Positions 35,753 through 50,738 of a DNA stretch of 64,000 nucleotides are shown here, one piece after another. Each line of letters starts with the position of its first letter. Position 1 is the first letter of the stretch. The position numbers and the translations under genes are program-made. The stretch spans positions 186,001 to 250,000 of the forward strand of contig NZ_FOKW01000003.1 of the NCBI RefSeq assembly GCF_900112205.1, in the 5' to 3' direction. Under the pieces are notes generated by a model. It was not told the origin of the DNA and made no database searches. It saw only the letters and a program-made list of their open reading frames with translations. The stretch is from Natronobacterium haloterrestre (GTDB lineage: Archaea; Halobacteriota; Halobacteria; Halobacteriales; Natrialbaceae).

Positions 35753-37000
35753 CTACTCGTAGAGCGGGTTCTCCTCGCAGAGCCGGTCGACCTCCTCGCG
35801 GACCTCGGCGAGAACGGCCTCGTCCTCGGGGGCGTCGATCACGCGAGTGATCAGGTCGCCGACCTCGCGACAGTCCGCCTCGTCGAAGCCGCGCGTGGTC
35901 AGCGCAGGCGTGCCCGCGCGGATGCCCGAGGGGTCGAACGCCGACCGGGTCTCGCCGGGGACGGTGTTTGCGTTGAGGACGATTCCGGCCTCCTCGAGCG
36001 CTTCCTCGGCGTCGCCGCCGGAGGTGTCGGGATGGCTCTCGCGCAGATCCACGAGCACGAGGTGGTTGTCGGTGCCGTCCGAGACCAGCGAGAACCCGTT
36101 CTCGGACAGCGACTCGCCAAGCGCCTTCGCGTTGGCGACGACCTGGTGCGCGTACTCCTCGAACTCCGGCTCGAGCGCTTCCTTGAAGCCAACGGCCTTG
36201 CCGGCGACGTTGTGCATGAGCGGGCCGCCCTGGCCGCCGGGGAAGACGGCGGAGTCGACGTCGTCCGCGTACTCCTCGTCGCACATCACGATGCCACCCC
36301 GGCCCGCGCGGATGGTCTTGTGAGTCGAGCCAGTGACGAAGTCCGCAATGCCGACCGGCGAGTCGTGAACGCCGGCGGCGACCAGGCCCGTGATGTGGGC
36401 GATGTCCGCGAGGTGGTAGGCGTCGACGTCGTCGGCGGCCGCCTGGATGCGCTCCCAGTCGATCTCGCGCGGGTACGCGGAGTAGCCCGAGACGACGATG
36501 TCCGGATCGAACTCCTCGGCCAGGTCGGAAAGCCCCTCGTAGTCGATGTAGCCCGTCTCGGGGTCGACCTCGTACTGCTCGACCTCGTAGAGCTGTCCGG
36601 TGAAGTTGGCGGGGTGGCCGTGGCTGAGGTGGCCCCCGTGGGTCAGGTCCAGCGAGAGGATCCTGTCCCCGGGCTCGAGCATCGCGAAGTAGACTGCCTG
36701 GTTGGCCTGGGTCCCCGAGTGGGGCTGGACGTTGACGTGCTCGGCGCCGAACAGTTCGGTCGCCCGTTCGATCGCGAGTTCCTCGACCTCGTCGGCGTAC
36801 TCGCAGCCGCCGTAGTACCGCGAGCCGGGATACCCCTCCGCGTACTTGTTCGTCAGGGCACTCCCCTGGGCGTCGAGAACCGCGGGGCTGACGTGGTTCT
36901 CGCTCGCGATCATCTGCAACGTCGACCGCTGACGGTCTACCTCGTTCTCGAGCGCATCGGCAACGGCGGGATCGACCTCCCGGACGTGCTCGTGGTCCAT
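35753..37000 (-). CDS. glyA: serine hydroxymethyltransferase
   Basis: Interconverts serine and glycine with tetrahydrofolate, feeding methylene-THF to ThyA and FolD. PLP lysine in FVTGSTHKTIRAGRGG. Also QPHSGTQANQAVYFAMLEPG and HITGLVAAGVHDSP. 415 residues from the ATG at 37000; a methionine 21 bases upstream is possible. The C-terminal DCREVGDLITRVIDAPEDE is typical. Confidence 0.95.
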   Translation of the reverse strand: MDHEHVREVDPAVADALENEVDRQRSTLQMIASENHVSPAVLDAQGSALTNKYAEGYPGSRYYGGCEYADEVEELAIERATELFGAEHVNVQPHSGTQANQAVYFAMLEPGDRILSLDLTHGGHLSHGHPANFTGQLYEVEQYEVDPETGYIDYEGLSDLAEEFDPDIVVSGYSAYPREIDWERIQAAADDVDAYHLADIAHITGLVAAGVHDSPVGIADFVTGSTHKTIRAGRGGIVMCDEEYADDVDSAVFPGGQGGPLMHNVAGKAVGFKEALEPEFEEYAHQVVANAKALGESLSENGFSLVSDGTDNHLVLVDLRESHPDTSGGDAEEALEEAGIVLNANTVPGETRSAFDPSGIRAGTPALTTRGFDEADCREVGDLITRVIDAPEDEAVLAEVREEVDRLCEENPLYE

Positions 37001-37185
37001 GTGCGATAGGGTGACTGGCAATCGTATAAGTGTACCTTTCCCGTGCGCTCCCGTCCGTCTCCGGCGTCTGCCGCGAACGTAACGGCTCGCCGTCGCCGCC
37101 CGAATCCCCTGAACCAGTAGATATAATTATCAGTATCGGTTCATCCAGTACAACTAACTAATCGCGGCAACATTCCGCTGCTCGA

Positions 37186-39477
37186 ATGATAGAGTGGGAA
37201 CTGGACGACCGGGCGCTCCGCGTGACCGACGCGGATAACGCCGAGTTGTCCGTTCAGGCCGAGGATCTCACCGTCGACGGCGACGGCCCCGGCCTCCCGC
37301 GGCCGGTCGACGATACGATCGTCGCGCGCACCTCTCGTCTCTCCTTTCCCCACGCCGTCGTCTACGCGTTCTCGCTCGGATCCGACGGGATGGGCGTCGA
37401 CACTGCCAGCAGGAGCAGTTCCGAATCGGCCGCCGGCGAACGCCGCTACGAACTCGATCCCGGCGGAGACCCGCTTCGGTTACCACCAGGCGAGTACGTC
37501 GTCGACGTCGACACGGAGATCAAGACCTATCTCCGGTTCTCCGGCCGGGCCACCATCGAGAAGACTCCTGACTTCGAATCGGTCGTCGTCTCCTTTCCCC
37601 GCAGCACCCGCGTCGTCCTCGGGTTCCGGAGCCGTCACGAACGCCCCGCCGGAACGATCACCGTCCCCGACGACCCGACGCAGGTCGCGGACGCTGTCTC
37701 CCACCTCGCCGCCTCCCACAAGACCACCGGCCCCGAACGCTCCTACCCGACCCTTCGGGGCCACCCACCGTTGCTCGAGGCCGGCGACGAACTCGCGGTT
37801 CCGGACTGCATCGCCGCCGATACACCCGAAACCGGGATCGAACTCGTCGTGCCGCCGATCTACGAGGTCCTGTACGTCACCGCACCGCTTGCCTACTACC
37901 TGCAGGCGACCGTTCGCACGGACCCAGCCCTGGGCGGCACCGGCGATGGAGTGGGCGGCACTCGTCGAGGGCAACGCCGCGCCGAGGGACCACGCCTCAG
38001 GCTCCTCGACCACGGGATCGAACGGGAGCTCTCGCCGATGCCGGCGCTCGAGCGCGACGTCGAGCGCCTGCTCCGGAAGACGTTCTTCCTCGACTGTCTG
38101 GTCCGCAACGCCGGCCCGTACGGGACGACGCTCGCGGAGAGCAGCGTTCTCCAGGCGCTCGAACTCGACGCGGACGCGCTGTACGAGGCCGACCCCCAGC
38201 GACGGCTCGCGGCCTACCTCGAGGTACCCTTCACAGCGATCGAGCATCGCCTGCCGGAGTGGCACCTCTCGACGTACGTCGCGCCGGAGTTCGGCCGCCT
38301 CGAGACGTTGCCGTTCCTGCTCGACCGAATGAGCCTGATCTACCGGCCCCGGACCTCGACGCTCGAGGGCCAGGAGTTGATCGAGCGATCGCTCGAGGAC
38401 TTTTACCGCGGTCCGAAGCCACAGGGTCCGGCACAGTCGACGGAACCGACGACAGCCGACCGCGCCAGCACCGGCGAGGTCGCGTCCGTCGACGTCGTCA
38501 AACCCGAACTCCGACACGGCCGCGTTCACGGCTGGCTCGCCGAGGGGGTCCCCATCGACGTCTTCAAATCCGCGCCGGGAGCCTACCAGAACCGCCTCGA
38601 CTACCTCGAGCGGGCGAGCGACGGGACCTCGATCCGGATCGTGCTCAACGACCCCGAGATGGCGGGCGAAGGGGACGCCGTCGCCGAGATCTACCGTCGC
38701 CGGTCGGACGAACTGTCGATCGACGTCGCCGTCGAGGAATCGCTCACGACCGCCGAACTGGCACGGACGTTCGAAACGAACCACGACTTCGTCCACTACA
38801 TCGGCCACTGCGAAACCGACGGATTCCGGTGTCCGGACGGCACCCTCGCAGTCTCGAGCCTCGAGCGGTGTAACACAGAGACGTTCTTCCTCAACGCGTG
38901 TGGCTCCTACTACGAGGGGCGAGCCCTGATCGAGAAGGGAAGCGTCGCCGGCGCGGTGACGTTCTCGCGGGTGCTCAACGACCACGCCGTCCGGGTCGGG
39001 TCGACGTTTGCGAAACTGCTCGTCCACGGGTTCAGCATCGAGCGTGCGATGCGACTCGCGCGCCGTCGCATCATGATGGGGAAAGACTACGCGGTCGTCG
39101 GCGACGGTACCCACTCGCTCACGCAGGCGGACCACCGGCTCCCGACGACGGTGACGATCGAATCGCTCGACGGAGAGGACGAGGCCGGCGACGGGGTACA
39201 GCGGAGCGAAAACGGGGCGGCAAACCCCAACGCTCTCGAGCGAAGCGATCGGTACTTCGTTACGCTCGACTGTTACGCTACGGGCGAAACCGGCGGCTAC
39301 TACCATCCACACACCGGGGTCGACGAGTACGCCTACCTCTGCGGGAACGAGGCCGCACTGATACTCTCGGGGACGGAACTTGCGACGCTGCTCAAGGAGA
39401 CGGAGGCGTCGGTGATCTACGACGGCGATCTCTACTGGTCCGGGGAACTGTGGCCGCGGTTCGAGAGTGGCCAGTGA
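37186..39477 (+). CDS. CHAT-domain (caspase-like) protein, haloarchaeal
   Basis: 763 residues, ATG at 37186. The last third has a CHAT-like peptidase pattern: DFVHYIGHCETDGF with H541, then FFLNACGSYYEGRALIEKGS with C572. AGAVTFSRVLND and LLVHGFSIERAMRLARRRI follow, as in CHAT proteins. The His/Cys spacing fits the catalytic dyad. Residues 1-400 are unlike anything I recognise and mostly beta/alpha-rich, without TPR repeats. The 120-residue C-terminal domain (VTLDCYATGETGGYYHPHTG) is also unknown. No partner gene is visible on either side: glyA is divergent and about 500 bases follow. Confidence 0.7.
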   Translation: MIEWELDDRALRVTDADNAELSVQAEDLTVDGDGPGLPRPVDDTIVARTSRLSFPHAVVYAFSLGSDGMGVDTASRSSSESAAGERRYELDPGGDPLRLPPGEYVVDVDTEIKTYLRFSGRATIEKTPDFESVVVSFPRSTRVVLGFRSRHERPAGTITVPDDPTQVADAVSHLAASHKTTGPERSYPTLRGHPPLLEAGDELAVPDCIAADTPETGIELVVPPIYEVLYVTAPLAYYLQATVRTDPALGGTGDGVGGTRRGQRRAEGPRLRLLDHGIERELSPMPALERDVERLLRKTFFLDCLVRNAGPYGTTLAESSVLQALELDADALYEADPQRRLAAYLEVPFTAIEHRLPEWHLSTYVAPEFGRLETLPFLLDRMSLIYRPRTSTLEGQELIERSLEDFYRGPKPQGPAQSTEPTTADRASTGEVASVDVVKPELRHGRVHGWLAEGVPIDVFKSAPGAYQNRLDYLERASDGTSIRIVLNDPEMAGEGDAVAEIYRRRSDELSIDVAVEESLTTAELARTFETNHDFVHYIGHCETDGFRCPDGTLAVSSLERCNTETFFLNACGSYYEGRALIEKGSVAGAVTFSRVLNDHAVRVGSTFAKLLVHGFSIERAMRLARRRIMMGKDYAVVGDGTHSLTQADHRLPTTVTIESLDGEDEAGDGVQRSENGAANPNALERSDRYFVTLDCYATGETGGYYHPHTGVDEYAYLCGNEAALILSGTELATLLKETEASVIYDGDLYWSGELWPRFESGQ

Positions 39478-39799
39478 GACCACTGCCGATTCCCAGGGCT
39501 CAGCTTCGGAAGGCACTGTCCGTGCTCGTCGTCGCTTCGTCCGGGCCCGGATCGAAATCGGAATCGGAAGCGGGACGGAATGGGATCAGAAGCAGGATCA
39601 GGACCAGGATCCGCCGTCCGTCCTAGATCAGGGTCCGCCGTACGTGCTAATACCTTTCGCGTGAACCGTTTCCGACTTCGTTCGTTCGGACTGTTCGCTA
39701 CCGTGTCCGTTCGCGACCCACCACGGTCGCTGTCCTCGATCACCCATGCGGTTCGGTAATCGCAGATGAAGGTTATATATTTACTGTAAGTTAGGAAAT

Positions 39800-39931
39800 A
39801 TGATATCCGCGGCGGGGATTCCCGAATCGACCCCTCGAGGAAACCGAGAGACCGGTCCGAACCGTCGCCATCGACCAGACGGGATCGGCCGAGTTCGATA
39901 CCGGATCCTCACGGAGAAAATTACCGGTTGA
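39800..39931 (+). CDS. possible leaderless 43-residue peptide
   Basis: Starts MISAAGIPESTPRG and ends RILTEKITG. The ATG is about 24 bases downstream of the centre of a strong TATA box (TATATA at 39774-39779), the right spacing for a leaderless message. It is basic and Arg-rich, unlike normal haloarchaeal proteins, so it could equally be an untranslated leader or an sRNA. Its stop codon falls inside the inverted repeat before tbsP. Confidence 0.3.
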   Translation: MISAAGIPESTPRGNRETGPNRRHRPDGIGRVRYRILTEKITG

Positions 39932-40008: not shown

Positions 40009-40827
40009 ATGACCTCGAATTTACTCAATCACCAGATTGACGATATCCTCGAGAGTGTGCTCGAGGACGCGAGTGGGGACATTTACATGGTCAATCCCTC
40101 GTGGGAAGGAATCGAGCAGTTCGTCTCCGTGGCGACCGGGTTCGACGACTCGCTTCCGACCGTCCACATGCTCGCCGACGAACGGACACTCAAGGACGTC
40201 ATGGACGACTTCATCGTCGCCTCGAACGCCGCCGACCTCATCAGCGACGACGCGCTCGCCCTGCGGACGCTCGAGGAAGCCCCCGAGAACTCGCTTTTGA
40301 TCACCGAAGACCGGATCGTCGCGATCGTCCACGCCGGCGACCGCGTCGGCGGCCTCGTCACCGAGGACGAGAGTTTCGTCGAGGACACCTACGACACCTA
40401 CGCGGCCCGCTGGGAGGACGCCGAGACGTTCAACCTCCGGACGCCGCCGATCACGGACGTCCAGGACACCCTCTCCGACGAGATCGGCCCCGACGCCGAG
40501 GAGGATTTCTCCGCCATTCTGGACTCCCTCGAGACCGCCCGCGGCGACGGCGACGGACTCGACGAGGTCACCATCTCGCTTCTGGTCGCGGCCAAGAACG
40601 AGGCGCTGCTGTACGACATCAGCAAGTGGGGCGAGGACGTCGGGATCGCCTCCAAGGCGACCTTCTCGCGGACGAAGACCAAACTCGAGGACATGGGCCT
40701 GATCGACACCGAGAAGGTTCCGATCGACGTCGGTCGTCCGCGTCTTCGTCTGAAGATCGGCGACGAGCGTCTGCAGGAGGCCGACAACGGCCAGCTCGCG
40801 ACGGTCGCGCAGTCTATTCTCAATTAA
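40009..40827 (+). CDS. tbsP: transcriptional regulator TbsP (DUF5821)
   Basis: 272 residues matching the haloarchaeal family named TbsP. The family was described in Haloferax as working with TrmB on a glyceraldehyde-3-phosphate dehydrogenase gene. The first half is a sensor-like domain (NLLNHQIDDILESVLEDASG, VHMLADERTLKDVMDDFIVA). The C terminus has a winged helix (DVGIASKATFSRTKTKLEDM, then VDVGRPRLRLKIGD in sense). Leaderless-type promoter upstream. Its ligand is unknown. Confidence 0.82.
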   Translation: MTSNLLNHQIDDILESVLEDASGDIYMVNPSWEGIEQFVSVATGFDDSLPTVHMLADERTLKDVMDDFIVASNAADLISDDALALRTLEEAPENSLLITEDRIVAIVHAGDRVGGLVTEDESFVEDTYDTYAARWEDAETFNLRTPPITDVQDTLSDEIGPDAEEDFSAILDSLETARGDGDGLDEVTISLLVAAKNEALLYDISKWGEDVGIASKATFSRTKTKLEDMGLIDTEKVPIDVGRPRLRLKIGDERLQEADNGQLATVAQSILN

Positions 40828-49959: not shown

Positions 49960-50078
49960 ACCGATCCTACGGGAGCCGGTGTAAAAAGCCGGGTGGTCAG
50001 ATGAGAGCCCAGAACGCGGGTTTCTAGGGACGCGATGGCCGCAATATTTATTCCTGAATGTTGTATTTGTTATGTCGA

Positions 50079-50738
50079 ATGGTGACGGAATACGGGAGCG
50101 GGGGGACCGATCTGGGGACGTTCGCGCGGACGCTCGAGCGGCTCAAGCGGGAGGGGTGTAACGTCTTGCTGGTCGGCGCGAACGCCACGGACTGTCACGG
50201 CGTCGTCTGTCGTCGACTCTGTGGGGCCGCGGGACCGGAGCCGCGACGCCGGCTGTTCGTCACCGATGGCGAGGGACCGGTCGCCGAGGACGCCGCGATG
50301 GAACGGGGGGCAGCATCCGGAAACGAGGTGGCGGTCCGTGACGCCGATCACGTCGGCGAGACGATCCGGATCGACGAGCACGACTCGCTCGGTGCGATCG
50401 GGATCGACATCGTCGAAGCCATCGACGACCTCGAGGACGAGGTCGGCGGGTTCGCGCCGTCCGAACTGCGGCTCTGTATGGATTCGGTCGCCGGCCTCTT
50501 CCGGGAGCACGACGCCGAGCGCGTCTTCAGACTGCTTCACGTGACGGCCTCTCGCGTCGATCACATCGACGGAATGGGCCACTATCACCTTCCGCTCGAG
50601 CGCGACCACGACGCCGTCAACCTCCTCGAACCGCTGTTCGACGCGGTCGTCGAACTCCGGGTCCGGTCCGATGGCGACCGGCGCGAACAGCGGTGGCATC
50701 TCCGCGAGGGGGAGACCACCGACTGGATTTCGCTGTAG
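50079..50738 (+). CDS. RecA/KaiC-like haloarchaeal protein (DUF7504-like)
   Basis: 219 residues. The N-terminal GCNVLLVGANATDCHGVVCR and EPRRRLFVTDGEG resemble the nucleotide-binding core of the haloarchaeal RecA-like families, but a clear Walker A lysine is not visible. The later ELRLCMDSVAGLFREHDAER and VTASRVDHIDGMGHYHLPLE fit that fold. An ATATTTATT element (about 50044-50052) lies about 30 bases upstream. Function unknown. Confidence 0.65.
   Translation: MVTEYGSGGTDLGTFARTLERLKREGCNVLLVGANATDCHGVVCRRLCGAAGPEPRRRLFVTDGEGPVAEDAAMERGAASGNEVAVRDADHVGETIRIDEHDSLGAIGIDIVEAIDDLEDEVGGFAPSELRLCMDSVAGLFREHDAERVFRLLHVTASRVDHIDGMGHYHLPLERDHDAVNLLEPLFDAVVELRVRSDGDRREQRWHLREGETTDWISL

Follow-up and report, generated by a model that had tools for sequence, protein, structure and literature searches.

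A putative CHAT-type cysteine protease at a conserved haloarchaeal locus, and its convergent mini-gene

The DNA analysed, a stretch of 64,000 nucleotides from Natronobacterium haloterrestre (the window), contains a gene for a putative CHAT-type cysteine protease, which is a core member of its family in nearly all haloarchaea sampled, and is faced at its 3' end by a cryptic, convergent mini-gene. The explanation tentatively preferred, whose chances are put slightly short of even, is that of a CHAT-type protease with a regulatory N-terminal half, acting together with a mini-protein whose C-terminal Gly-Pro (GP) tail is a substrate or pseudosubstrate; the proteolytic activity of the window protein is proposed as a part of this explanation, and with the same reserve. 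The features of the locus, in window coordinates, are as follows.

35753..37021, minus strand: glyA (serine hydroxymethyltransferase), divergent upstream neighbour, synteny conserved
37186..39477, plus strand: putative CHAT-type protease ORF, 763 aa (ORF, 80 orthologues, AlphaFold2 model)
37186..38418, plus strand: N-terminal half, residues 1-411, without known domain; beta-rich at about 1-160, then alpha/beta at about 161-411, with R191, P194, D303 and W359 invariant
38518..39120, plus strand: predicted CHAT/caspase-fold region, about residues 445-645, limits approximate (DSSP of the model, Foldseek, profile alignment)
38806..38808, plus strand: codon of H541, proposed catalytic His (80 of 80 orthologues)
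38899..38901, plus strand: codon of C572, proposed catalytic Cys (80 of 80 orthologues)
39145..39465, plus strand: predicted C-terminal alpha/beta module, about residues 654-760 (AlphaFold2 model)
39628..39747, minus strand: cryptic convergent mini-gene, 39 aa, MGDRGQRPWWVANGHGSEQSERTKSETVHAKGISTYGGP (convergent-ORF survey of orthologue loci)
39773..39782, minus strand: TATA-like element AAATATATAA, at leaderless spacing from the mini-gene
40009..40827, plus strand: tbsP transcriptional regulator, downstream neighbour, divergent from the mini-gene, synteny conserved

The protease ORF is intact and starts with ATG. As recognised in the initial annotation, it features a His/Cys dyad, H541 in YIGHCE and C572 in LNACGS, followed by AGAVTFSR and HGFSIERAMRLAR; both dyad residues are invariant in the alignment of 80 orthologues. 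In the search for CHAT (PF12770), proposed at the same time, CHAT is the sole Pfam match of the window protein, and it scores 12.2 bits (E 0.13), under the cut-off of 24. TPR repeats, already described as absent, were not matched in the same scan, nor was p20 (C14), down to E = 1. Five of 69 family members reach CHAT at E <= 0.01, the best of them at 1.5e-5. Because of the score under the cut-off, the window protein, which has the dyad motifs and the following helices in common with the Pfam family, is described here as CHAT-clade by fold and motif, and not as a curated PF12770 member.

No match was obtained when the PDB was searched with the window sequence; the family profile reached SAVED-CHAT 8tl0 at E 0.083, with H541 and C572 aligned to the 8tl0 motifs HFIGH and LNAC. 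The AlphaFold2 model of the window protein, generated from an alignment of 61 family members, rows from plasmid records being left out, has a pLDDT of 88.5 and a pTM of 0.89: its top PDB matches by Foldseek are SAVED-CHAT 8tl0 (E 1.2e-9), separase 5fby, gingipain R 1cvr, MALT1 and caspase-4. Since profile alignment, model and Foldseek ranking agree, the predicted caspase/CHAT fold, also anticipated in the initial annotation, is well supported. A second Cys, C549 (window 38830-38832), in a GxxCxDG motif, is invariant in the first 62-sequence alignment, dyad-dead copies included; in a wider set of sequences three exceptions are found.

Comparison with known systems places the window protein near several of them. 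SAVED-CHAT, a type III CRISPR protease and the best structural match, shares the caspase-fold domain and the aligned His/Cys motifs; the window protein differs in having neither a SAVED domain nor a CRISPR neighbourhood, and in its unrelated N-terminal half. Separase (5fby, 5fc2), the second-best structural match, has the caspase fold in common, and its association with a small partner of its own is a possible parallel; unlike the case of separase, sequence similarity is undetectable and a cohesin context is absent. The Craspase TPR-CHAT protein Csx29 is a CHAT protease with a regulatory part at its N-terminus and a target of its own, whose gene lies close by (PMC10028731). An N-terminal regulatory part and a nearby dedicated target are likewise proposed for the window protein, which, unlike Csx29, features a different N-terminal fold, no TPR and no Cas7-11, and has non-CRISPR neighbours. 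Archaeal orthocaspases and metacaspases (p20) are, likewise, His/Cys caspase-fold proteases of Archaea: a survey from 2019, covering caspase homologues of prokaryotes, counted only 93 p20 proteins in Archaea and found no pseudo-variants there (PMC6426788). The haloarchaeal family, in contrast, includes dyad-dead clades and has no p20 Pfam match; as the window protein does not match C14 even at E = 1, the approach of such a survey would pass it by.

For the N-terminal half, the absence of any known domain, noted at the outset, was borne out. A separate model of residues 1-411 is confident (pLDDT 89.8, pTM 0.87): its best PDB matches are weak ones to glycosidase beta-sandwiches, at E 0.015 or worse, and no viral structure is matched below E 0.001. 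Long gingipain alignments of the full-length model in Foldseek had suggested a pseudo-caspase in residues 160-411; the idea was dropped when the model of 1-411 alone gave no caspase match, and a pseudo-caspase nature is not claimed, because that model matched only the glycosidase folds, weakly. The most likely role of this half, we infer, is signal sensing, as the built-in sensor of the initial annotation would have it, or active-site gating.

The protein had been described as solitary, which proved incorrect: the source genome itself contains two family members, and the family is present in 54 of the 61 relatives searched, or 45 of the 49 with good-quality genomes. In a wider sample of the phylum, at least 46 genomes of the same order are among the matches listed, plus four of one other family. 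These four non-haloarchaeal genomes (family f25) contribute the relatives L157-L160: the dyad is intact in three, and no DUF7503 match was found in the mini-gene scan. In the family tree the orthologues of the window gene form one group (25 rows, support 99), apart from the paralogues, which are 30-40% identical and occur in about one to nine copies per genome.

The comparison of neighbour genes across homologues, recommended in the initial annotation, proved informative: nearly every orthologue locus with enough flanking sequence, across haloarchaeal families, has the fixed order glyA/CHAT/tbsP, glyA being divergent; folD is also among the neighbours. This constant position between housekeeping genes, over dozens of genera, argues against an abortive-infection caspase effector, a reading which finds some ground in the many CHAT proteases at work in conflict systems, type III CRISPR among them (PMC10028731), and in the location of some paralogues on plasmids. 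PADLOC models match neither the protease nor DUF7503 nor DUF7504 (the associated families described below), viral or phage relatives were not found, and no CRISPR or nucleotide-sensor gene adjoins the locus; a role in defence was accordingly rejected as very unlikely. A gasdermin or nucleotide-sensor partner was also looked for among the neighbour genes, and none was seen. The plasmid-borne paralogues are mostly named "hypothetical protein" in public plasmid records, "CHAT domain-containing" and "caspase family" being used once each. In five genomes (L113-L117), tandem pairs of CHAT paralogues, together with DUF7503, lie between putative genes for ribosomal protein uS7 and elongation factor 2, recognised by eye from their ORF sequences.

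Most paralogues retain both His and Cys. The dyad is missing in 20 of 94 rows, belonging to about four clades; homologues lacking His or Cys, which the initial annotation had considered, thus exist in divergent paralogue clades only, and never among the orthologues. Loss nearly always takes both residues: that it always does so is not strictly true, because L179 has lost the Cys and kept the His. One genome (G015, with L118, L174, L175, L176 and L120) contains at least eight dyad-dead members, a single intact-dyad paralogue and only one DUF7503 copy. The persistence of dyad-dead clades, in which the rest of the sequence is conserved, G540 and W359 being among the positions that stay invariant, would fit a protein whose caspase fold is retained and whose main role is that of a regulator or scaffold, the dyad being kept for binding and not for hydrolysis; given a dyad invariant over 80 orthologues, such a role appears improbable for the window protein.

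The initial annotation also held that no substrate gene adjoins the protease gene, overlooking the convergent mini-gene at 39628-39747 (minus strand), a putative substrate gene. Its family emerged from the clustering of ORFs around the paralogues, which revealed a conserved convergent ORF of 40-55 aa just beyond the CHAT stop codon. By Pfam the paralogue mini-gene is DUF7503 (PF24335), and a gene of about 240 aa, often found upstream, is DUF7504 (PF24336); a literature search found no paper naming either. The pairing with the protease is exclusive: all 39 DUF7503 matches, in the 28 genomes searched as a whole, are convergent and lie 4-282 bp past the stop of a CHAT-family gene, which provides a first functional lead for DUF7503. 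These proteins consist of a hydrophobic helix ending in an A-rich stretch, 6-12 polar residues and a GP terminus; in the paralogues the helix is membrane-spanning or signal-peptide-like.

In the window, the mini-gene lies 151 bp past the CHAT stop, and its product ends in ...GISTYGGP. A mini-ORF is found in 62 of 81 orthologue records, ending in Y[GST]GP in 54 and in another xGP in eight; the latter carry a helix of the NPR or HPR type, and intermediate forms at other orthologue loci retain NPR/HPR along with GP. The N-terminal parts of the mini-proteins at orthologue loci vary. In the conserved tail, each of the four bases occurs at the third position of Gly and Pro codons, and TAG, TGA and TAA all serve as stop: selection, therefore, acts at the protein level, and an RNA or DNA element is ruled out. 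A TATA box at leaderless spacing, 26-35 nt ahead of the mini-gene ATG in the window, is conserved among orthologue loci and fits leaderless transcription, its exact position being slightly favoured by the method, as mini-gene starts were picked partly by means of the box. At several loci (window 39748-39800 and orthologues), the box is flanked by an inverted repeat, ACAATAAC ... GTTATTGT, which looks operator-like; tbsP, divergent from the mini-gene, could be its regulator.

The mini-protein of the window lacks a hydrophobic helix and gives no match with the Pfam DUF7503 model; the case for homology is accordingly made by its convergent site just past the CHAT stop, its orientation, the C-terminal GP and the intermediate forms, and descent from DUF7503 is likely, not proven. 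Gene callers and Pfam thus overlook a part of the mini-gene family. Some intact family members have no mini-gene: Haloarculaceae-type orthologues (convergent ORFs checked by eye), second copies of tandem pairs and relatives outside haloarchaea.

A mini-gene is found beside 52 of 74 intact-dyad members and beside only one of 20 dyad-dead ones; the Fisher test gives p ~1e-7, a value inflated by relatedness, and with only about four dyad losses on the tree the association loses its significance when relatedness is taken into account. Strict pairing, fixed C-terminus and near absence beside dyad-dead copies together suggest that the tail meets the active site, as substrate or pseudosubstrate, and the mini-protein is probably a partner or target of the protease. 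The same exclusive pairing and near absence, a short fixed tail suited to docking in the active site, and the presence of separase among the structural neighbours would also agree with a dedicated, uncleaved inhibitor, securin- or antitoxin-like, which silences the protease until loss of the labile mini-protein frees it for cellular targets. Antitoxins, however, usually share an operon with their toxin, whereas protease gene and mini-gene run towards each other, each from its own promoter; moreover, no mini-gene could be detected beside several intact proteases, and pure inhibition is considered unlikely.

DUF7504 bears on a further alternative. Its family is larger, with many unlinked members; 15 copies directly precede a CHAT paralogue on the same strand, at a distance of 87-242 bp, and in one case DUF7504 is fused to HalOD1. 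This arrangement, together with the DUF7503 layout of signal-like helix, A-rich end, polar residues and GP, would suit a peptide-signal precursor or membrane sensor, with the CHAT protein as receptor or processing enzyme, in a pathway with DUF7504/HalOD1. Such a pathway is rated quite unlikely, as the window mini-protein has no helix, and helix conservation in DUF7503 is stricter than a signal peptide requires. A DUF7504 protein of 226 aa is also encoded in the window (50058-50738, plus strand), where it follows the CHAT gene at about 10.7 kb; in four other genomes a DUF7504 gene lies, likewise, 8.9-13.9 kb from the orthologue.

In the preferred explanation, H541 and C572 would form the catalytic dyad, while residues 1-411 would sense a signal or gate the active site. 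The protease would work with a mini-protein of its own, the product of a convergent gene at the 3' end of the protease gene with a separate promoter; the C-terminal tail of this mini-protein (Y-G-G-P in the window, GP in the family) would most likely dock in the active site, either as a substrate or as an inhibitor of the pseudosubstrate type. Once cleaved or released, the mini-protein, helix-bearing in the DUF7503 paralogues, would pass into another state. A more specific version, a housekeeping proteolytic switch, ancestral in haloarchaea, which cuts the mini-protein at its GP tail and is the source of haloarchaeal caspase-like activity, is regarded as decidedly unlikely.

Finally, the family may be relevant to an activity already described. 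Exactly one copy, with intact dyad, is present in each of the 12 Haloferax genomes searched. One genome encodes a PCNA with 100% identity to the chain in PDB entry 3hi8 (H. volcanii PCNA), and has a single family member, dyad intact, flanked by DUF7504 and DUF7503; both are also present in the named H. volcanii control genome. The Haloferax copy is a paralogue, not an orthologue, of the window gene. Strong, specific, zVAD-FMK-sensitive caspase-like activity has been reported in H. volcanii extracts, by authors who did not know the gene and urged that it be identified (PMC3615174). For this orphan activity, reported in 2010-2012, the Haloferax copy is a candidate. For CHAT-clade proteases cleavage after Asp is not obligatory, and the activity has a rival source in the proteasome: the link is therefore a testable candidate only, which, thanks to the single copy, may be addressed by a single deletion.
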